Shown here in pieces: positions 44,090 through 51,597 of a DNA stretch of 64,000 nucleotides. The stretch's first letter is position 1; each line of letters begins with the position of its first letter. The stretch is from Rufibacter tibetensis. Its GTDB lineage: Bacteria > Bacteroidota > Bacteroidia > Cytophagales > Hymenobacteraceae. The DNA is taken from contig NZ_CP012643.1 in assembly GCF_001310085.1 (NCBI RefSeq), forward strand, positions 3,765,501 through 3,829,500, read 5' to 3'. Position numbers and translations under genes: made by a program. Under the pieces are notes generated by a model, which saw nothing but the letters and a program-made list of their open reading frames with translations, made no database searches and was not told the DNA's origin.

Positions 44090-44267
44090 TGGTATTGCGA
44101 GGGCAAATGTAGGAAATGCAGGGCAAGAAAGAAAACTGTCTTCCCGTTTTTTAAGCCTTTCCAGAAAAAGACGCCTTAATCAGGAACGGAATACATTAGG
44201 GGCTAACATTTTCGGCTTTTAACAGTTTAGAAGAGAAGATAAATACTTGTTACCTAAGACGAAACCT

Positions 44268-44687
44268 ATGAAAAGAGTGTACACGGCGGAAGTTACCGCC
44301 ACTGGAGGCCGCAATGGCCAGGTAAAATCAACTGACGGCATCATTGACATGCCGGTACGTCTGCCTGAAGGATTAGGCGGAAAAGGCGGAGCGACCAACC
44401 CAGAGCAGCTGTTTGCCGCAGGCTATGCAGCTTGCTTTCAAAGTGCGCTACAGTTAGTGGCCAGTAAGCAGCAGATCAGGCTGGATGAAAATTCAACCGT
44501 TACTTCTCACGTAGGCCTTGATCAGTTTGATGACGGCCGCTACGGCCTGTCTGTACAGTTAGATGTGAAAGTGGACGGGGTAGATAAAGCCAAAGCGGAG
44601 GAACTGGTAGCCCAAGCCCATGAAGTTTGCCCGTACTCAGTTGGTACAAAAGGAAATATAGAAGTAAAACTTAACGTGCTTGATTAG
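44268..44687 (+). CDS. ohr: Organic hydroperoxide resistance protein (OsmC/Ohr family)
   Basis: A 139-residue thiol peroxidase that reduces organic hydroperoxides. The two catalytic Cys residues are in AAGYAACFQSAL and AHEVCPYSVGT, and Arg in DMPVRLPEGLGG is the expected partner. The frame extends 7 codons upstream, but the ATG at 44268 aligns with the family start MKRVYTAEVTATGGRNGQ. No regulator gene is adjacent. A very long hairpin follows. Confidence 0.93.
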   Translation: MKRVYTAEVTATGGRNGQVKSTDGIIDMPVRLPEGLGGKGGATNPEQLFAAGYAACFQSALQLVASKQQIRLDENSTVTSHVGLDQFDDGRYGLSVQLDVKVDGVDKAKAEELVAQAHEVCPYSVGTKGNIEVKLNVLD

Positions 44688-45031: not shown

Positions 45032-45844
45032 TTACTTGCCAAAAGCCCAAAGCAGGAAACAAGGCATCAGCCGTGCCCAAGTGGCTACGTCATGGCGGCC
45101 GCCAATGATTTCCATGTACCTGGTGTCTAGGTTCCTCTCGTAGCCTTTTTTGTAAAGTTCATTGAGCAGGCTGGTGGTGTCATCTATGGAGTCAATGATG
45201 CCGTTCTGGTTCCTGTCAGATTTTTCATCCTGAGTGCCGGCTTCAAACCAAAACTTCAGGGATGGTTTCTCCTGAGTTGATTTGATTAGTTTATGAACAA
45301 TCCGGTTTTTGTCTGGAGCGCCTTTTTTGGCTTCCTTGCTTCTCCACCAGAATGCGCCAGAAAAAGCCCCTACCTTAGAAAAGATGTTTGCATGGTGCCA
45401 GGCTATATCAAAGGCAGATACTGCTCCTAAGGAGAACCCAATAATAGAGGAGCTTGCAAATTCAGAGATATTGGTTTTCTTATAAAAGGCGGGCAATAGT
45501 TCCTCCACCACAAACTGCCGGTATTTTCCGGCCTCGGCTCCTCTACCTTTGTAGTCTGGAGTGCCCGAAATGCCAAATTCCTGTAAACGGTCACCCGCTT
45601 TGATACCCACTGTTAAAATGGGACTGATCTGGTTCTTTTTATACAAAGGCTGCAGGATTTGTTCATACTGCATGGTTTCTAAATCCTGCCCATCATTGAT
45701 CAGAAGCAAATGCAGGGGCTCTACCACACCTTCCATGTCTGGCAGGTATAGTACGCATTCTACTTCTCTGTTTAGTATTTCCGAATTTACCGTTAGCTCC
45801 TCCACCTGGATACTCACTTCGGACACTGTAAAATCTAAAAGCAT
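45032..45844 (-). CDS. Esterase (Fes-like alpha/beta hydrolase), first of the amidoligase locus
   Basis: A 270-residue hydrolase without a signal peptide, so probably cytoplasmic. The fold resembles enterochelin-esterase / esterase D proteins: LLINDGQDLETMQYEQ, nucleophile IIGFSLGAVSAFDIAW, the acid Asp in EAGTQDEKSDRNQNG and catalytic His in IGGRHDVATWARLMPC. It reads away from the five-gene amidoligase set across 152 bp, a likely shared promoter region. Its relation to that set is contextual. The natural substrate may be an ester or peptide made by the cluster. Confidence 0.8.
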   Translation of the reverse strand: MLLDFTVSEVSIQVEELTVNSEILNREVECVLYLPDMEGVVEPLHLLLINDGQDLETMQYEQILQPLYKKNQISPILTVGIKAGDRLQEFGISGTPDYKGRGAEAGKYRQFVVEELLPAFYKKTNISEFASSSIIGFSLGAVSAFDIAWHHANIFSKVGAFSGAFWWRSKEAKKGAPDKNRIVHKLIKSTQEKPSLKFWFEAGTQDEKSDRNQNGIIDSIDDTTSLLNELYKKGYERNLDTRYMEIIGGRHDVATWARLMPCFLLWAFGK

Positions 45845-45996
45845 TTTATTGTAATAAGGGTAATCCTACAAAAATAAGGGGCTAACTGTAACATATAAAA
45901 CAACTAAGATTAGAACATGTTTTTTTAATTACAGATCATTTTAAATATCCTATTGTAAATCAACTGCGTAACATACCAGAATAAATACTGAGACGA

Positions 45997-46701
45997 ATGA
46001 AAGAGCAGTATCACAAATGGTATTCGCAGCAGCTAAGCCAAGACATAGAGATGTTGGTCTACGGCGACAGCGGATACCCGGTTATTCTCTTCCCCACCTC
46101 AAAGGGCAGATATTATGAAAACAAAGATTTCAAACTCATTGAAAGTGCCGCCTGTTTCATAAACGAGGGCAAAGTAAAGATTTACTGCATAGACTCTATT
46201 GATGCCCAAAGTTGGTACAATAAAGGAGTGCATCCGGCTGACCGCGTGAAAAACCACATATGGTATGATCAAATGTTGTACCATGAATTGGCGCCCTGGG
46301 CAATGCAGGAGACGGGGCACAGCAAAGTCTGTGTGGCAGGCTGTAGTTTTGGCGGGTACCACGCGGCTAATTTCGCCTTCAAACACCCAGACAGGGTAAG
46401 CCACATGTATAGCATGAGTGGGGCTTTTGACATCAGGGGCCAGGTAGATGATTTCTATAGTGATGATGTCTATTATAACAACCCCATTGAATTTGTGCGC
46501 CATGCCACAGATCCCGCTTTATGGCAGCTAAAAATCATTCTGGGCACTTCTGATTATGATATCTGCCTTGAATCAAATCATATTCTCTCCGCCATTCTGA
46601 ATGGCAAAGGCATAAACCATTGGCTTGACATACGGCCCAACGCAGTGCATGACTGGTCTGTTTGGCGCGAGATGTTTCCGCATTATTTATCTCAGATCTA
46701 A
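45997..46701 (+). CDS. Second esterase of the amidoligase locus
   Basis: A 234-residue cytoplasmic alpha/beta hydrolase of the PF00756 esterase type: YPVILFPTSKGRYYENKDF, nucleophile VCVAGCSFGGYHAANF, acid LGTSDYDIC and His in AVHDWSVWREMFPHYL. It is the first gene of the plus-strand set and ends 17 bp before the ATP-grasp gene. With the divergent esterase it makes two hydrolases for one pathway, which could load or cut an acyl or amide product. Substrate unknown. Confidence 0.85.
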   Translation: MKEQYHKWYSQQLSQDIEMLVYGDSGYPVILFPTSKGRYYENKDFKLIESAACFINEGKVKIYCIDSIDAQSWYNKGVHPADRVKNHIWYDQMLYHELAPWAMQETGHSKVCVAGCSFGGYHAANFAFKHPDRVSHMYSMSGAFDIRGQVDDFYSDDVYYNNPIEFVRHATDPALWQLKIILGTSDYDICLESNHILSAILNGKGINHWLDIRPNAVHDWSVWREMFPHYLSQI

Positions 46702-46718
46702 CAGTAACAGTAAGCACT

Positions 46719-47723
46719 ATGAAAAAAATAGGAATTCTATTCGGGCAGGAAAAAACTTTTCCGCAGGCGTTTGTGGACCGTATCAACCAAAAAAAGGAGA
46801 AAGGCATTACGGCAGAGTTTGTCCATATTGACAAAGTCATGCAGGGCGAAAGCAATGGTTATGATGTCATTGTAGACCGTATTTCCCAAAGCGTGCCTTT
46901 TTACCGGGCCATGCTGAAAAACGCAGCCATGACCGGTACTGCGGTCATCAATAACCCATTCTGGTGGAGCGCAGATGAAAAGTTCTTCAACAACGCCTTG
47001 GCAGTAAAATTGGGTATTCCGGTGCCAAAAACGGTTTTGCTTCCATCGCGCGACATGCCCGATGATACCAACGGCAACTCTTTCCGGAACCTGAGTTTCC
47101 CGCTGGATTGGGAAGGTATCTTCAATTACGTAGGTTTCCCAGCGTACATGAAGCCCTATGACGGTGGTGGTTGGAGAGACGTTTACAAGCTGCATGACGC
47201 AGAAGATTTCTTTGACAAATTCAATCAAACTGGTCAATTGGTCATGATGCTGCAGGAGGAAATTATTTTTGATGATTATTTCCGGTGCTACTGCATTGGC
47301 GGAGAGCACGTGCGCATCATGCAATATGAGCCCCGCAATCCGCACCATTTGCGGTACGAGCACGGCAAAGCACCGGCTGCTAAAGCTATTCTGGACAAAG
47401 TGCGTGAGTACGTGATTACCCTAAACCAGTACCTGGGTTATGACTTCAACACCGTGGAATTTGCCATCAGAGATGGTATTCCGTACGCCATTGACTTCTG
47501 TAACCCGGCACCAGACGCAGAACTTACCAGCGTGGGCGAGGAGAACTTTGAATGGGTAGTAGAAACGGCTGCTTCTTATGCCATTCAGAGAGCGAAACAC
47601 CATTGGCCCAACGCAGATAACCTTACCTGGGGTAAGTTTGTCACGAGCGGCGCTGCTAAGGCTCCTTTGATTGGCGGCGGCGCACCTGTTAAAGCGGCAA
47701 GAACAACTAAAGCGAAAAGCTAA
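46719..47723 (+). CDS. ATP-grasp ligase, gene 1
   Basis: A 334-residue carboxylate ligase. Pre-grasp MKKIGILFGQEKTFPQAFVD leads to KFFNNALAVKLGIPVPKT, the lysine segment YMKPYDGGGWRDVYK, MLQEEI, and the metal site NTVEFAIRDGIPYAIDFCNP followed by PAPD, all of the ATP-grasp fold. It should join a carboxylate to an amine with ATP hydrolysis. The C-terminal 15 or so residues (APVKAARTTKAKS) are basic and look unstructured. It starts 17 bp after the esterase and ends 33 bp before the GCS2-type gene. The product is unknown. Confidence 0.88.
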   Translation: MKKIGILFGQEKTFPQAFVDRINQKKEKGITAEFVHIDKVMQGESNGYDVIVDRISQSVPFYRAMLKNAAMTGTAVINNPFWWSADEKFFNNALAVKLGIPVPKTVLLPSRDMPDDTNGNSFRNLSFPLDWEGIFNYVGFPAYMKPYDGGGWRDVYKLHDAEDFFDKFNQTGQLVMMLQEEIIFDDYFRCYCIGGEHVRIMQYEPRNPHHLRYEHGKAPAAKAILDKVREYVITLNQYLGYDFNTVEFAIRDGIPYAIDFCNPAPDAELTSVGEENFEWVVETAASYAIQRAKHHWPNADNLTWGKFVTSGAAKAPLIGGGAPVKAARTTKAKS

Positions 47724-47756
47724 TCTGGTATCCTCTAAAACGTAATCTCGTGCTGT

Positions 47757-48860
47757 ATGAATGAGTTCACACTGGGAGTAGAAGAAGAGTTCATGGTGGT
47801 AGACCCTGTGACTAGGGAGTTGACCTCGCATGATCAGAAGATTGTGGATGCCGCGCAAAAAATTCATGAAGACCAGGTAAAGGCAGAAATGCACCAGGCC
47901 GTAGTGGAGGTGGGTACCAGCATTTGCCGAAACACCGATGAGGCACGAGCCGAAGTAATTAAGCTGCGCAAAACGGTGGCAACCCTGGCCGGTGAGCTGG
48001 GGTTGCGCATCGGGGCGGCTGGTACTCACCCCTTTTCGCATTGGCAGCACCAATTAATCACAGACCACCCGCGGTACTTTGACATTGTGAATGAATTGCA
48101 GGAAGCGGCCCGTTCAAACCTTATCTTCGGGTTGCACGTGCACGTGGGTTTTCAGAGCAGGGAGATGGCCATGCATATTGCCAATGGTGTCCGGTACTTT
48201 TTACCGCACGTGTATGCCTTGTCTACCAATTCCCCTTTCTGGGAAGGCCGGAATACCGGATATAAATCTTTCAGGACAAAAGTCTTTGATAAATTTCCAA
48301 GAACCGGTATTCCAGATTACTTCAATAGCATAGAGGAATATGACAGCTACATCAAACTTTTGGTGAAAACCAACTGCATTGACAACGCCAAGAAGATCTG
48401 GTGGGACGTGCGCGTGCACCCGTTCTTTGACACAATAGAATTCAGGATTTGCGACTGCCCTATGCTGGTGAATGAGACTATGGCGTTTACCGCTATTTTT
48501 CAGGCAATCTGTGCCAAACTGTATAAGCTAAGATTGCAGAACCTGAAATTCATCACCTACAGCAGAGCGCTTATTAACGAAAACAAGTGGCGTGCAGCAC
48601 GTTATGGCATTGACGGTAAAATGATTGACTTCGGACGTGAGTTAGAAGTCAATACCCGCTCCCTGGTGCTGGAGCTGCTGGACTTCATTGATGATGTGGT
48701 GGATGAGCTGGGTAGCCGGAATGAAATCAACTATGTGCACCAGATTCTGGAGCACGGCACCGGTGCCGACCGCCAATTGGAGGTATATAGTAAAAACCAA
48801 AGCTTCACCGATGTAGTAGATTACATTACATCCCAAACTTTACAAGGCGTTGACGTATAA
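47757..48860 (+). CDS. Carboxylate-amine ligase, GCS2/YbdK family
   Basis: A 367-residue enzyme of the glutamate-cysteine ligase 2 family: FTLGVEEEFMVVDP at the start, HQAVVEVGTSICRN, GLRIGAAGTHPFSHW and FGLHVHVGFQSREM. Family members form amide bonds using ATP, e.g. gamma-glutamyl-type ligases, and YbdK has weak glutamate-cysteine activity. Here it sits between an ATP-grasp ligase and a glutamine amidotransferase, so the substrate is probably not simple glutathione. No second glutathione gene is in the window. Confidence 0.9.
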   Translation: MNEFTLGVEEEFMVVDPVTRELTSHDQKIVDAAQKIHEDQVKAEMHQAVVEVGTSICRNTDEARAEVIKLRKTVATLAGELGLRIGAAGTHPFSHWQHQLITDHPRYFDIVNELQEAARSNLIFGLHVHVGFQSREMAMHIANGVRYFLPHVYALSTNSPFWEGRNTGYKSFRTKVFDKFPRTGIPDYFNSIEEYDSYIKLLVKTNCIDNAKKIWWDVRVHPFFDTIEFRICDCPMLVNETMAFTAIFQAICAKLYKLRLQNLKFITYSRALINENKWRAARYGIDGKMIDFGRELEVNTRSLVLELLDFIDDVVDELGSRNEINYVHQILEHGTGADRQLEVYSKNQSFTDVVDYITSQTLQGVDV

Positions 48861-48949
48861 GGACATAATTTGTGTCTAGCACTGTTTTTGTACTATCATT
48901 TCAGAAGTACAATTTGTAGCTTTAGGTTTTTAATGGAGAGTAAGAGAAG

Positions 48950-49777
48950 ATGAGTATAAAAGTTGCAATCCTGGACATGTATGATGGCCATGCCAACCAA
49001 GGCATGAAATGCATCCAGGATATATTGAAGAAATTCAAGAAGAACAATTCAGTTGATTTAACATACCAGATATTTGATGTTAGGGGCAAGAACGAAATTC
49101 CCGACACCAGTTTTGATATCTATATCTCTACGGGCGGCCCCGGAAGCCCCACGGAGAGCGAAGGCTCCGAATGGGAGAACAACTACTTTGCCTTTATTGA
49201 TGAACTAGAGTCCATTAACAATGACCCTGCCAGGACAGATAAGAAGTACGGGTTCTTTATTTGCCATTCATTCCAGTTGCTTTGCAGAAAGTACAAGCTG
49301 GGCAATGTGGTGAAGAGACGGTCTACCTCTTTCGGCATTTTCCCAATCTACAAGACCGAGCATTGGGACAATGAGGAGATCTTCAGCGGGACCGATGAAA
49401 CGTTCTACGCCGTTGATTCAAGAGACTGGCAGGTAATTGAACCAGATGAGGCACAGTTTGAGAAAACAGGCGCTAAACTGCTGGCAATTGAGAAAGAGCG
49501 GACGCATGTGAACTTGGAGCGCTGTATGATGGCCATCCGGTTCAGTGACTATTTCTTCGGGACTCAGTTTCACCCAGAGGCAGATCCGGTGGGCATGAAA
49601 GCGTATTTGCTGGAAGAAGAAAACAAGGAGCGGGTCATCAAAGCGCACGGAGAGAATAAATACTATGAGATGCTTCATTTATTGGAGAATCCGGTAGAGT
49701 TGGAGTTCACCAGGAAAGAGATCATTCCATCATTTCTTCATAATGCAATCAATAGTATGCTGATACAGGAAGTATGA
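48950..49777 (+). CDS. Class I glutamine amidotransferase-like protein
   Basis: A 275-residue protein with a GAT-1 domain. YISTGGPGSPTESEG holds the oxyanion region, FFICHSFQLLCRKY the nucleophile Cys (sequence CHS, not the common CxG), and FFGTQFHPEADPVG the His-Glu pair. The catalytic triad is present, so it may release ammonia or cut a gamma-glutamyl bond. The C-terminal 55 residues are an added helical part. Its stop overlaps the next gene by 4 bp (ATGA). Confidence 0.87.
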   Translation: MSIKVAILDMYDGHANQGMKCIQDILKKFKKNNSVDLTYQIFDVRGKNEIPDTSFDIYISTGGPGSPTESEGSEWENNYFAFIDELESINNDPARTDKKYGFFICHSFQLLCRKYKLGNVVKRRSTSFGIFPIYKTEHWDNEEIFSGTDETFYAVDSRDWQVIEPDEAQFEKTGAKLLAIEKERTHVNLERCMMAIRFSDYFFGTQFHPEADPVGMKAYLLEEENKERVIKAHGENKYYEMLHLLENPVELEFTRKEIIPSFLHNAINSMLIQEV

Positions 49778-50961
49778 TAAAAGAAATAAGGGAGAAGTAT
49801 AATGCAGCCTTTTCGCAGGAAGCTTACCAGGCCATACTAGCCGAGATAAACCAGCAACTTAAAGAACCTCTGGGGTTCAGAGTGGCCGAGACTCCGGTTT
49901 TCATTGACCAGAAATTCAAGGAAAAACTGGTTGCGGCTGGTGATGACCTGGTTACTACCATCCTGAGAAAAGATTTCAAGGAACTCACAGAAAGATCTAT
50001 CCCGCAGGAATGGAGGACCGCCCATGAAAATGAGCGGCCTCACTTTCTTACTTTTGACTTTGCCGTTTGCCGCGATGAAAACCAGGAGCTTGTACCCCGG
50101 TTAATTGAGTTACAAGGCTTCCCTTCCCTTTATGGTTTTCAGCCCGAATTGGCAAAACTGTTCCAGAAACACTTCCCCCTTATAGAATCCTTTACCCCTT
50201 ATTTTGAGCAGCACGACGAGCAGGCTTATTTCGATCTGCTTCGCAGAACCATTATTGGGCATCATCAGCCTCACGAAGTAATCTTACTGGACATCAATGC
50301 TAAGGAGCAGAAAACTGTTATTGATTTCTTTATTACAGCCCGGCACTTAGGTTTAGAGATTGTCTCCTTAGAGGAACTGAAACAAGTAGGAAGCCAGATC
50401 TTCTATACAAAAGATGGCGTGAACCATCAGGTAAAGAAAATCTACAACCGGCTCATCTTTGATGAAGTAGGGAACAAAGAAGAGGCTTTCAGGAATGTGC
50501 CTGACCTGTTAACCACAGATCAGATAGAATGGGTAGGGCACCCCAACTGGTTCTACCGGATTAGTAAGTACACCATGCCATTTCTGGAAAGTGAGTTTGT
50601 GCCGCTTACCACCTTTCTTTCTGAGGTGATTACCTTTCCAGAGAATTTGTCTGACTTCGTATTGAAACCCCTTTTCTCTTTTGCAGGGCAAGGGGTGATC
50701 ATTGACGTAACTCGTGATGACCTTGCCGCCATCAAAGACCCTGAAAACTGGGTGCTGCAGAAAAAAGTGGCCTATGAACCCGTCATACAGGCTCCTGACG
50801 GATTGGTGAAATGTGAGATCAGGCTGATGTACGTTTGGCCAGATGGTGATGAGAAACCAACCTTGGCCATCAATCTTGCCAGGCTAAGCCGTGGTAAAAT
50901 GATTGGCGTACGCTACAACAGCGACTTTGATTGGGTAGGAGGGACTGTTTGCCTTTTCTAA
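49774..50961 (+). CDS. ATP-grasp-like ligase, gene 2
   Basis: A 395-residue protein translationally coupled to the amidotransferase (ATGA overlap). The N-terminal part (VPRLIELQGFPSLYGFQPEL) and the C-terminal grasp-like part (FVLKPLFSFAGQGVIIDVTR with the nucleotide-binding Lys, then WVLQKKVAYEPVIQ and KCEIRLMYVWPDGDEKPTLA) suggest an ATP-grasp enzyme of an unusual type, with the closest feel to glutathionylspermidine-synthase-like or other divergent ligases. Little similarity to ATP-grasp gene 1 outside these sites. It probably adds one further unit to the product. Confidence 0.72.
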   Translation: MIKEIREKYNAAFSQEAYQAILAEINQQLKEPLGFRVAETPVFIDQKFKEKLVAAGDDLVTTILRKDFKELTERSIPQEWRTAHENERPHFLTFDFAVCRDENQELVPRLIELQGFPSLYGFQPELAKLFQKHFPLIESFTPYFEQHDEQAYFDLLRRTIIGHHQPHEVILLDINAKEQKTVIDFFITARHLGLEIVSLEELKQVGSQIFYTKDGVNHQVKKIYNRLIFDEVGNKEEAFRNVPDLLTTDQIEWVGHPNWFYRISKYTMPFLESEFVPLTTFLSEVITFPENLSDFVLKPLFSFAGQGVIIDVTRDDLAAIKDPENWVLQKKVAYEPVIQAPDGLVKCEIRLMYVWPDGDEKPTLAINLARLSRGKMIGVRYNSDFDWVGGTVCLF

Positions 50962-51078
50962 TCACTTTTGCCTCTTTATATCTTTTCAAGATCAACTTTT
51001 TTAACGAAGTTCCTACTTGCTAACTGTGGTATGCGGCGCAATTCCTAGGCGCATTCTACAAGATAAATAGATTTGTAG

Positions 51079-51282
51079 GTGCACGCCTTTAGCCAGTGCT
51101 AGCGTAGGGGCTGTTTGTTGCGAGGCCCTTATACTGGGCTGTTTCATAGTTGCCGCTAAGCGCTCACGGCCGCGAGGCCCCGTCTTCCCCTCTCGCACTG
51201 CCCTTTCGGCCTGAGCTGTCTGTCTCTCTTAGCTTAAGCTTCTCTATGGGCAAAAGCTAGGCGCTCGATGGGAGGACTGGAA
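51079..51282 (+). repeat. Dispersed fold-back repeat, copy 1
   Basis: About 204 bp homologous to 55650-55861 in the same orientation. Shared blocks include GCGCTCACGGCC and the run CTGCCCTTTCGGCCTGAGCT, and the last part ends GGACTGGAA in both. The fold-back ends are less perfect here than in copy 2 (around 51180-51190 with 51270-51282). No open frame is conserved, so it is not a gene. Confidence 0.85.
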
Positions 51283-51285
51283 TAG

Positions 51286-51362
51286 GCAATGCGTACTATT
51301 TACTTCTAGGTGAGGATGCCTACCGCTGGCGCGAGCTTCTAACTCGTGTCCACACGCATTGC
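51286..51362. repeat. Hairpins downstream of repeat copy 1
   Basis: GCAATGCG (51286-51293) pairs with CGCATTGC (51355-51362). Inside is CGAGCTTCTAACTCG (51332-51346), a short stem-loop that aligns with CAAGTTTATAACTTG of copy 2 at the same distance (50-51 bp) from the repeat end. Confidence 0.6.
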
Positions 51363-51597
51363 TTTCTTATGCAAAAGTATATTCTCCTCCTCGAATGGTA
51401 GAGGAGGGTTCCATTTAGTATCGTTTCAGAGCCATTTTCTATAAATCAGATCCAAAACATATATGCTTTTCATGGCTCATGTTCCTTAGGAACCCTACTC
51501 TAGGTAATCTCATGCAATCATTAAGTTTTAGTTATATTCCAACTGGTTGTAGAGAGTTAATAATCTTACCTGTATCTTATAGTCACTACCTGCTGCT

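Follow-up and report, generated by a model that had tools for sequence, protein, structure and literature searches.

Why would a bacterium encode three dissimilar candidate amide-bond ligases, two esterase-like proteins and a putative cysteine hydrolase side by side, and what would they make together? The question is raised by positions 45032-50961 of the window, a stretch of 64,000 nucleotides from Rufibacter tibetensis, which consist of six open reading frames (ORFs) termed E1, E2, AG1, GCS2, GAT and AG2. We give about even odds (roughly 0.5) to the reading that this locus encodes a non-ribosomal pathway building one small intracellular compound step by step, in which a short peptide receives an amine cap from AG2 and is acted on by a hydrolase, either GAT or an M29-like protein.

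Layout and inheritance of the locus

The six ORFs are arranged as follows:

45032..45844, minus strand: E1, serine esterase-like protein, divergent, 270 aa (PF00756, E=4.4e-25)
45997..46701, plus strand: E2, serine esterase-like protein heading the plus-strand run, 234 aa (PF00756, E=1e-8)
46719..47723, plus strand: AG1, predicted RimK/ArgX/Ddl-like ATP-grasp ligase, 334 aa (fold model)
47757..48860, plus strand: GCS2, predicted YbdK-type carboxylate-amine ligase, 367 aa (PF04107, E=5.3e-61)
48950..49777, plus strand: GAT, class-I glutamine amidotransferase-like Cys hydrolase, 275 aa (PF00117)
49774..50961, plus strand: AG2, predicted glutathionylspermidine/YgiC-fold amidoligase, 395 aa (no Pfam or NCBIfam model)

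These coordinates agree with the compact arrangement reported in the first-pass annotation, in which a divergent esterase gene accompanies five plus-strand genes. Between E2 and AG1 lie 17 bp, between AG1 and GCS2 33 bp, and between GCS2 and GAT 89 bp, and the GAT and AG2 ORFs share 4 bp (49774-49777). The start of AG1 is placed at the ATG at 46719, and not at the TTG further upstream that the automatic ORF list gives, because M1 and K2 are invariant in 25 aligned sequences. E1 and E2 are distant paralogues (24% identity, E=1e-5), and the E2 sequence matches general esterases in the PDB, from E=1.3e-4. Conserved at 95% or more are Ser138 and His251 of E1 (64 sequences), Ser117, Asp188 and His218 of E2 (46 sequences), and Cys105, His208 and Glu210 of GAT (49 sequences), all of which we take, from known folds, to be catalytic residues.

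How far does this arrangement extend? Two samples bear on its conservation, namely 80 named loci, chosen by AG1 as the top 80 among 583 or more relatives, and a phylum sample of 395 genomes. Of the named loci (best 80 of at least 583), 37 keep the order E1 on the minus strand followed by E2, AG1, GCS2, GAT and AG2 on the plus strand, in genera as far apart as Rufibacter, Pedobacter and Arcicella; conserved order in distant genera, set beforehand as the test of a pathway, is what was found. E1 is present in 69 and E2 in 48 of these 80 best of at least 583 relatives, within which identity spans 68-97% for AG1, 59-98% for GCS2, 41-95% for GAT and 41-91% for AG2, the esterases being conserved no worse than AG2 and GAT.

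Across the phylum sample, AG1 occurs in about one third of the genomes (134/395), GCS2 in 130/395 (weakest match E=9.4e-4), AG2 in 114/395 and GAT in 88/395, two of the latter (G047 and G082) having only weak partial matches. AG1 accompanies AG2 in 110 of 114 genomes and in all 26 AG2-bearing families, and both GCS2 and AG2 are found in 105 of the 134 AG1 genomes; Fisher p values for such co-occurrence overstate independence because the genomes are related. Where AG1 and AG2 are both present, they lie at most 8 kb apart in 62 of 110 genomes (in one, G066, via a contig-end fragment) and not within 8 kb in the other 48. With genomes of about 4.2 Mb, placement at random would yield about 0.4 such cases, as compared to the 62 observed, and the arrangement is beyond chance. 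All four genes, AG1, GCS2, GAT and AG2, are linked by 8 kb steps in 36 genomes with seven family codes. Within the class of the query, AG2 and GAT occupy the same 48 genomes, of which 47 have AG1 and 44 have GCS2, and the 20 listed relatives lacking AG2 have none of the four genes save one divergent AG1; four genomes of one family (f8) carry AG1, GAT and AG2 in the absence of GCS2. Together with the domain calls and fold models, this co-inheritance supports one part of the initial proposal, a single functional unit that comprises three candidate amide ligases of unlike kinds and is conserved far beyond close relatives.

Three predicted ligases

First, AG1 has no Pfam match above cut-off; a look beyond the phylum gave no match among 72,556 plasmid records, and in the PDB its sequence matched nothing significantly and its profile nothing at all. 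Its structure model (pLDDT 82) is matched by Foldseek to ArgX (E=2.5e-13), Ddl (2.8e-13) and RimK (8.0e-13), and the top 50 includes LysX/ArgX and the peptide-modifying ligase PsnB. On this model AG1 is predicted to have the RimK/LysX-type ATP-grasp fold, for which Ddl scores equally well. It differs from RimK, LysX and ArgX themselves in scoring 36.3 bits against NCBIfam rimK_fam (TIGR00768), under the cut-off of 143.4, and in carrying its own invariant stretches, for example NNPFWW (25 aligned sequences).

Second, GCS2, the one GCS2 match in the Rufibacter genome, scores 207 bits against PF04107 (cut-off 21) and 533.6 bits against NCBIfam PRK13515, above the equivalog cut-off of 371. It thereby reaches the equivalog score of the YbdK-type proteins and is a predicted ligase.

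Third, AG2 represents a protein family without a Pfam or NCBIfam model, as profile searches returned no Pfam match at E<=0.1 and no NCBIfam match. As a single sequence it matched nothing in the PDB, and the sole match of its profile there up to E=1 was YgiC, at a non-significant E=0.32. The AlphaFold2 model (pLDDT 90.0, pTM 0.90) gives 26 Foldseek matches at E<=0.001 (probability 1.00, query TM 0.41-0.63), 25 of which are titled as members of the glutathione synthetase/GspS ATP-grasp class, the remaining one being Cp1B. The top match is the GspS-like 3n6x (E=1.5e-15), followed by glutathione synthetases, Gss, YjfC, YgiC and Cp1B, among them 2io7 (E=4.3e-11), 7uk6/YjfC (1.6e-10) and 7uk8/YgiC (2.3e-10). 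Profile alignment with YgiC/YjfC/Gss by hhalign (E=4.4e-4, probability 33.6) covers 51 columns over the KPLFS loop. The first-pass annotation had called AG2 an ATP-grasp ligase; the class stands, but it is not a generic member, as its model falls among the glutathionylspermidine/eukaryotic glutathione synthetase/YgiC folds.

AG2 nonetheless lies below the Pfam cut-off for PF03738, the family of Gss, YgiC and YjfC, and a separate PF03738 protein (GSP_synth) is encoded elsewhere in the genome (C1:429626-430744). No gshB above cut-off is found in the genome (best TIGR01380 score 76.1 bits, cut-off 299.05), and on this and the PF03738 result we reject ordinary glutathione synthesis. The ligases do not score as the usual glutathione enzymes, and AG2 is distinct from the GSP_synth protein of the genome. 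In lineages without the block, AG2 neighbors (an amidohydrolase, a symporter and others) gave no consistent functional lead.

GAT and the competing readings

Does GAT supply ammonia, or does it cleave? It scores 36.5 bits against PF00117, above the cut-off of 22.8, and with its conserved triad fits the GAT-1 enzyme with Cys, His and Glu described at the outset; its sequence matched nothing in the PDB. It also retains GGPGxP (residues 62-67), a motif typical of true glutaminases, and could therefore still supply ammonia. GAT would then be a true glutaminase feeding AG2, an amide synthetase whose product ends in a primary carboxamide, and the 4-bp overlap of the two genes, together with the fact that the same 48 genomes in the class hold both, is in keeping with this. 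However, a GAT match is lacking from 45 of the 114 AG2 genomes, seven of which have an M29-like protein, not expected to supply ammonia, adjoining AG2; the PDB relatives of AG2 with the GspS fold presumably use amines or amino acids. An M29-like orthologue (at least 59% identity, a line set after seeing the gap to a 23-43% group) occurs in eight of the 45 genomes with AG2 and no GAT, seven times at about 1 kb or less from AG2, as compared to none of 35 examined genomes with both; the other 37 of the 45 have neither GAT nor this orthologue, and in 15 of the 35, more remote M29-like proteins (23-43% identity), some of them partial, are encoded at other sites. With an M29-like protein in its slot in some lineages, GAT may be a hydrolase instead of an ammonia donor, and we consider the glutaminase reading unlikely, albeit the strongest of the alternatives.

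Less probable still is that the ligases act on a protein or on a peptide of ribosomal origin, by RimK-like tailing or in the manner of graspetides, rather than building a free metabolite. GCS2 and the GspS fold are known as small-molecule ligases, and no precursor-like small ORF is apparent in the two flanking gaps, where nothing convincing as a RiPP precursor was found among 14 short ORFs (TTG or GTG starts in 12). What speaks for this reading is the match of the AG1 model to RimK, ArgX and LysX/ArgX, with PsnB in the top 50, and the tailing by RimK discussed in the available part of PMC4431377.

A new thiol had also been suggested as the product; for a low-molecular-weight thiol that replaces glutathione, the GCS2 and glutathione synthetase-like AG2 folds, both known from thiol pathways, and the lack of a gshB above cut-off could be cited. 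This now looks less likely and is in our view improbable, because the genome carries BshC (E=3.4e-125), the last enzyme of bacillithiol synthesis, and bacillithiol is therefore probably present. The neighboring Ohr gene (44265-44687) is ruled out as a member of the system, as it occurs in only one of the 80 named loci, that of Rufibacter (best 80 of at least 583).

Similarly doubtful is a degradative locus, in which the esterases and GAT or a peptidase take apart a conjugate brought in from outside, whose pieces the ligases salvage: three hydrolases do adjoin three ligases, and one AG2 relative (L069, 867 aa) shares a single reading frame with a sodium:solute symporter, but no transporter is recognised within the conserved block by domain calls or in the named loci (best 80 of at least 583), and AG1 and GCS2, though not AG2, are better conserved than GAT in these AG1-chosen loci, as would fit a ligase-centred pathway.

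The proposed pathway and its known relatives

In the stepwise synthesis that we favor, the RimK/ArgX-like AG1 would join amino acids into a short acid, aided by the YbdK-type GCS2 in genomes that have it. AG2, as a divergent relative of glutathionylspermidine synthetase and the YgiC/YjfC ligases, would activate a carboxylate of this acid as an acyl-phosphate and couple it to an amine. GAT as a Cys-His-Glu hydrolase, or the M29-like protein in its place, would subsequently cleave or trim the conjugate, and E1 and E2 could hydrolyse an ester or thioester form of the precursor or product. We infer the ligase activity of each enzyme and the order of the steps, as well as an AG2 acceptor that would be an amine other than ammonia, with a polyamine as first guess. 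The block thus probably makes a small peptide-like compound, possibly with an amine link; the "gamma-glutamyl" nature of the product has the family name of GCS2 as its sole basis.

In its overall logic the scheme would be similar to the making and hydrolysis of glutathionylspermidine, with most steps assigned to other enzymes. AG2 shares its predicted fold with Gss and YgiC/YjfC, and the KP(I/L)FS loop with YgiC. By annotation Gss has an amidase fused to its synthetase, whereas here a separate Cys hydrolase gene, GAT, adjoins AG2; GAT, a class-I GATase by Pfam, presumably differs in type from the Gss amidase, and AG1 and GCS2 are additional. In E. coli, ygiC and yjfC carry the annotation peptide--spermidine ligase, and the accessible text of PMC12568646 terms their products peptidylpolyamine synthetases. 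Peptide-polyamine ligases are among the members of the AG2 fold class, and a defined assay can therefore be used to look for the product. The eukaryotic (homo)glutathione synthetases 3kal, 1m0w and 2hgs share the fold too, but AG2 (395 aa) is about 70-90 aa shorter than these chains, is 11-13% identical in structural alignment, and occurs in a genome with no gshB above cut-off. As glutathione synthetases of this fold use glycine (PMC2845819, in the part available), the acceptor of AG2 could also be an amino acid. Finally, the fungal E-64 ligase Cp1B (9cjn), at rank 14 among the AG2 Foldseek matches, is described in the accessible part of PMC12568646 as belonging to an NRPS-independent pathway of standalone amide-forming enzymes, with homoglutathione synthetase, YgiC and YjfC as its closest structures; GCS2, RimK-like and GATase partners are absent from that part of the description.

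GAT has a further partner, as it accompanies AG2 in one layout and k3, another ATP-grasp-like protein, in the other (AG1-k3-GAT). Profile comparison of AG2 with k3 is weak (E=0.047, probability 1.1; E=0.0026, probability 11.4), and their kinship is therefore not claimed. Iyer and colleagues reportedly predicted, in 2009 (10.1039/b917682a), amidoligase operons with linked ligases of different folds. PMC4431377 credits this pattern to earlier work, its reference 16, which we take to be that study. Under the definition in the available part of PMC4431377, a conserved operon with at least two ligases that differ in fold, this block is a predicted amidoligase operon, and linked ligases are said there often to perform successive ligations.

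A bolder and more tentative idea, to which we give somewhat less than even odds, is that Bacteroidota and Ignavibacteria share a phylum-wide pathway to an undescribed peptidyl-amine (e.g., a gamma-glutamyl peptide-polyamine) via three ligases and a paired hydrolase, the AG1-GCS2-AG2 and AG1-k3 versions yielding chemical variants of a common AG1-made core. If true, it would parallel glutathionylspermidine but have been built independently. Lineages with the M29-like protein or with k3 offer experiments of nature on which steps can be exchanged and which are fixed. So broad a co-inheritance of the gene set points to a compound with a housekeeping or stress role in a major bacterial phylum, one not looked for before as far as literature searching shows: among the matches listed, no title or abstract opening concerned this operon in Bacteroidota, the 2009 amidoligase survey being outside that check. 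As a minor observation, sigma-70 promoter-like sites are rarer than in shuffled sequences (4 vs. a mean of 11.3), and terminator-like sites are somewhat commoner (12 vs. 6.8).

The locus and its genomic setting

The first-pass annotation had outlined a six-gene amidoligase locus, and all six of its ORFs were matched exactly in coordinates by our ORF check.

Genes of the locus, with domain matches
45032-45844, minus strand: E1, esterase-like; PF00756 (Pfam)
45997-46701, plus strand: E2, esterase-like; PF00756 (Pfam)
46719-47723, plus strand: AG1, RimK/ArgX/Ddl-like ATP-grasp protein; sub-threshold rimK_fam match only (Pfam and NCBIfam)
47757-48860, plus strand: GCS2, YbdK-type carboxylate-amine ligase; GCS2 domain, equivalog PRK13515 above cut-off (NCBIfam)
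48950-49777, plus strand: GAT, class-I glutamine amidotransferase-like; PF00117 (Pfam)
49774-50961, plus strand: AG2, 395-aa protein of predicted glutathionylspermidine/YgiC fold; no match in Pfam or NCBIfam

The plus-strand run is tightly spaced, with gaps of 17, 33 and 89 bp and a 4-bp overlap. E1 and E2 are distantly paralogous (24% identity), and the residues conserved in GAT (Cys105, His208, Glu210), E2 (Ser117, Asp188, His218) and E1 (Ser138, His251) are presumably the catalytic ones of these folds. The 5.4-Mb genome carries a single GCS2 match, BshC, no gshB above cut-off, and a separate true GSP_synth protein (PF03738, E=4.9e-91; contig C1, 429626-430744) distinct from AG2.

Upstream of E1 lies an Ohr/OsmC-family organic hydroperoxide reductase gene (44265-44687). 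Of the 80 best loci, drawn from at least 583 AG1 relatives, Rufibacter latericius alone has this gene next to the block. The 636-bp gap after AG2 (50962-51597) is without a clear gene and holds a terminator-like stem at 51385-51408.

Gene order and co-inheritance

First, the block recurs well beyond the genus. Our named loci, the 80 best among at least 583 AG1 relatives, belong by record title nearly all to Bacteroidota or Ignavibacteria; one titled as a 'Williamsia' MAG (L130) may be mis-binned. By tblastn among these 80, the full order, with E1 divergent from E2-AG1-GCS2-GAT-AG2, occurs in 37 loci, E1-AG1-GCS2 alone in 22 (many titled Chitinophagaceae or as genera of that family), and a partial or variant block in the other 21, several of the 80 contigs stopping within the block. 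GCS2 is found in 77 of them, E1 in 69, GAT in 50, AG2 in 49 and E2 in 48. In ORF calls on the same best 80, the five plus-strand genes are complete in 37 loci, and the gap is 150 bp or less for E2-AG1 in 40 of 44, AG1-GCS2 in 56 of 73, GCS2-GAT in 43 of 47 and GAT-AG2 in 35 of 46. The closest of the 80 is that of R. latericius (L076, Hymenobacteraceae; identity 97% for AG1, 98% for GCS2, 91% for AG2 and 88% for E1). Arcicella (L140) has the full six-gene order, Cryomorpha (L123, Flavobacteriales) has E2-AG1-GCS2-GAT-AG2 with E1 not recognised, Flavihumibacter (L125, Chitinophagaceae) lacks E2 but otherwise has the block, interrupted by an amidohydrolase, and three loci titled Ignavibacterium, Ignavibacteria or Ignavibacteriota (L113, L133, L141) retain AG1-GCS2-GAT-AG2.

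Second, the genes are inherited together. Searching one set of 395 phylum genomes with each gene, we found AG1 in 134, GCS2 in 130 (including one weak partial match, G173, and eleven matches of 33-38% identity in genomes without the other genes), AG2 in 114 and GAT in 88 (including two weak partial matches, G047 and G082). AG2 occurs together with AG1 in 110 genomes, with GCS2 in 109 and with GAT in 69, although Fisher p values for such co-occurrence are too small because the genomes are related. AG1 is present in all 26 AG2-bearing families. AG1 and AG2 lie within 8 kb of each other in 62 of the 110 genomes, against about 0.4 expected (G066, whose AG2 is divided between two contig ends, being counted via the fragment adjoining AG1); the other 48 carry both genes without such a pair inside 8 kb, which argues for a shared function, although contig ends may part some of them. 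Within the window's own class, the genomes with AG2 and those with GAT are the same 48, of which 47 have AG1 and 44 have GCS2; among the 20 AG2-less relatives listed for that class, GAT and GCS2 occur in none and AG1 in one (35% identity).

In seven of the 395 genomes, AG1 is divergent (32-43% identity) and the other three genes are missing. Five of these loci were fetched (L182-L186), and all show changes in the NNPFWW stretch, so this protein may be a paralogue that has a different role.

Variable parts of the block

Third, the partners of AG1 differ among lineages. In four of the 40 fetched loci (L042, L046, L049, L056), a protein belonging to a single cluster takes the place of GAT between GCS2 and AG2, as does a 64%-identical protein in one of the 80 named loci (L119); the L042 protein, the only one compared with Pfam, matches the M29 peptidase family (PF02073, 63.5 bits, cut-off 27). 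Matches to this M29-like protein were found in 23 of 80 genomes searched. Those of 59-100% identity (100% being the query's own genome) fall in eight, all among the 45 genomes with AG2 and no GAT, versus none of the 35 examined with both (Fisher p=0.008), and in seven of the eight the gene is about 1 kb or less from AG2. In the remaining 15 genomes, all of which have GAT, the matches are of 23-43% identity, some partial.

Ten families have AG1 without AG2. Nine of them are represented by eleven fetched loci in which AG1 is adjoined by k3, an ATP-grasp-like protein that Pfam models of circularly permuted ATP-grasp proteins match below threshold. GAT is the neighbour of k3 in ten of these loci; E2 could be recognised in nine, and five have a second esterase, k5. 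The last of the ten families (f16, L186) is represented by a divergent AG1 alone. Four genomes of family f8 have AG1, GAT and AG2 without GCS2. From these variants, AG1 looks like the constant part, and GCS2, the second ATP-grasp ligase and the hydrolase look variable.

The predicted AG2 fold and a candidate pathway

Finally, predicted structure offers a view of what the locus may make. An AlphaFold2 model of AG2, built with 31 relatives (pLDDT 90.0, pTM 0.90), has as its best PDB match in Foldseek a putative glutathionylspermidine synthase (3n6x, E=1.5e-15), followed by eukaryotic (homo)glutathione synthetases, E. coli Gss, YjfC, YgiC and the fungal ligase Cp1B; by title, 25 of the 26 matches at E<=0.001 belong to the glutathionylspermidine/GSH synthetase class, Cp1B being the remaining one. 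At the level of sequence the link to YgiC, YjfC and Gss is faint: hhalign aligns 51 columns across KPLFS (E=4.4e-4, probability 33.6), the YgiC match in a search of the PDB is non-significant (E=0.32), and comparison by eye suggests a common acidic-x-Q/N...P-S-L-Y stretch with YgiC. For the AG1 model (pLDDT 82), ArgX, Ddl and RimK are matches of about equal strength. RefSeq annotates ygiC and yjfC as peptide--spermidine ligases, and a passage of PMC12568646, citing Pederick et al. 2023, terms the encoded enzymes peptidylpolyamine synthetases. Since YgiC is described in part of PMC12506659 as without glutathionylspermidine synthase activity, the AG2 fold leaves the acid substrate unfixed.

Because linked ATP-grasp and COOH-NH2 ligases often perform successive ligations, according to a passage of PMC4431377, and given the predicted AG2 fold, we infer that the locus may encode a stepwise peptide pathway: its predicted ligases would build a peptide, amine coupling would be the last step, and GAT or the M29-like protein would act as hydrolase. 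Each protein's activity is likewise putative, as are the step order and the amine. GAT could instead be an ammonia donor; alternatively, the locus may modify a protein, its product may be a thiol, or it may be degradative. Multi-amidoligase operons are a known kind of system. Our literature search, which covered the titles and abstract openings listed, with the 2009 amidoligase survey outside its scope, found no account of this operon in Bacteroidota; as far as that search reaches, this set of genes, the AG2 family and the pattern across the phylum seem to be undescribed.

AG2 relatives also occur in other company. In one genus of family f29, such a gene directly follows a sodium:solute symporter-like gene in two genomes (L069, 6570-9173; L048, 6538-9173), the two forming a single 867-aa open frame in L069 and two ORFs in L048; this is a possible fusion, and possibly a lead to an imported substrate. 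In five loci from two families (L053, L059, L065, L066, L067) the gene immediately upstream of a lone AG2 encodes an amidohydrolase (PF07969, shown by Pfam for L053 alone), and the Flavihumibacter locus has a 31%-identical match between GCS2 and GAT.
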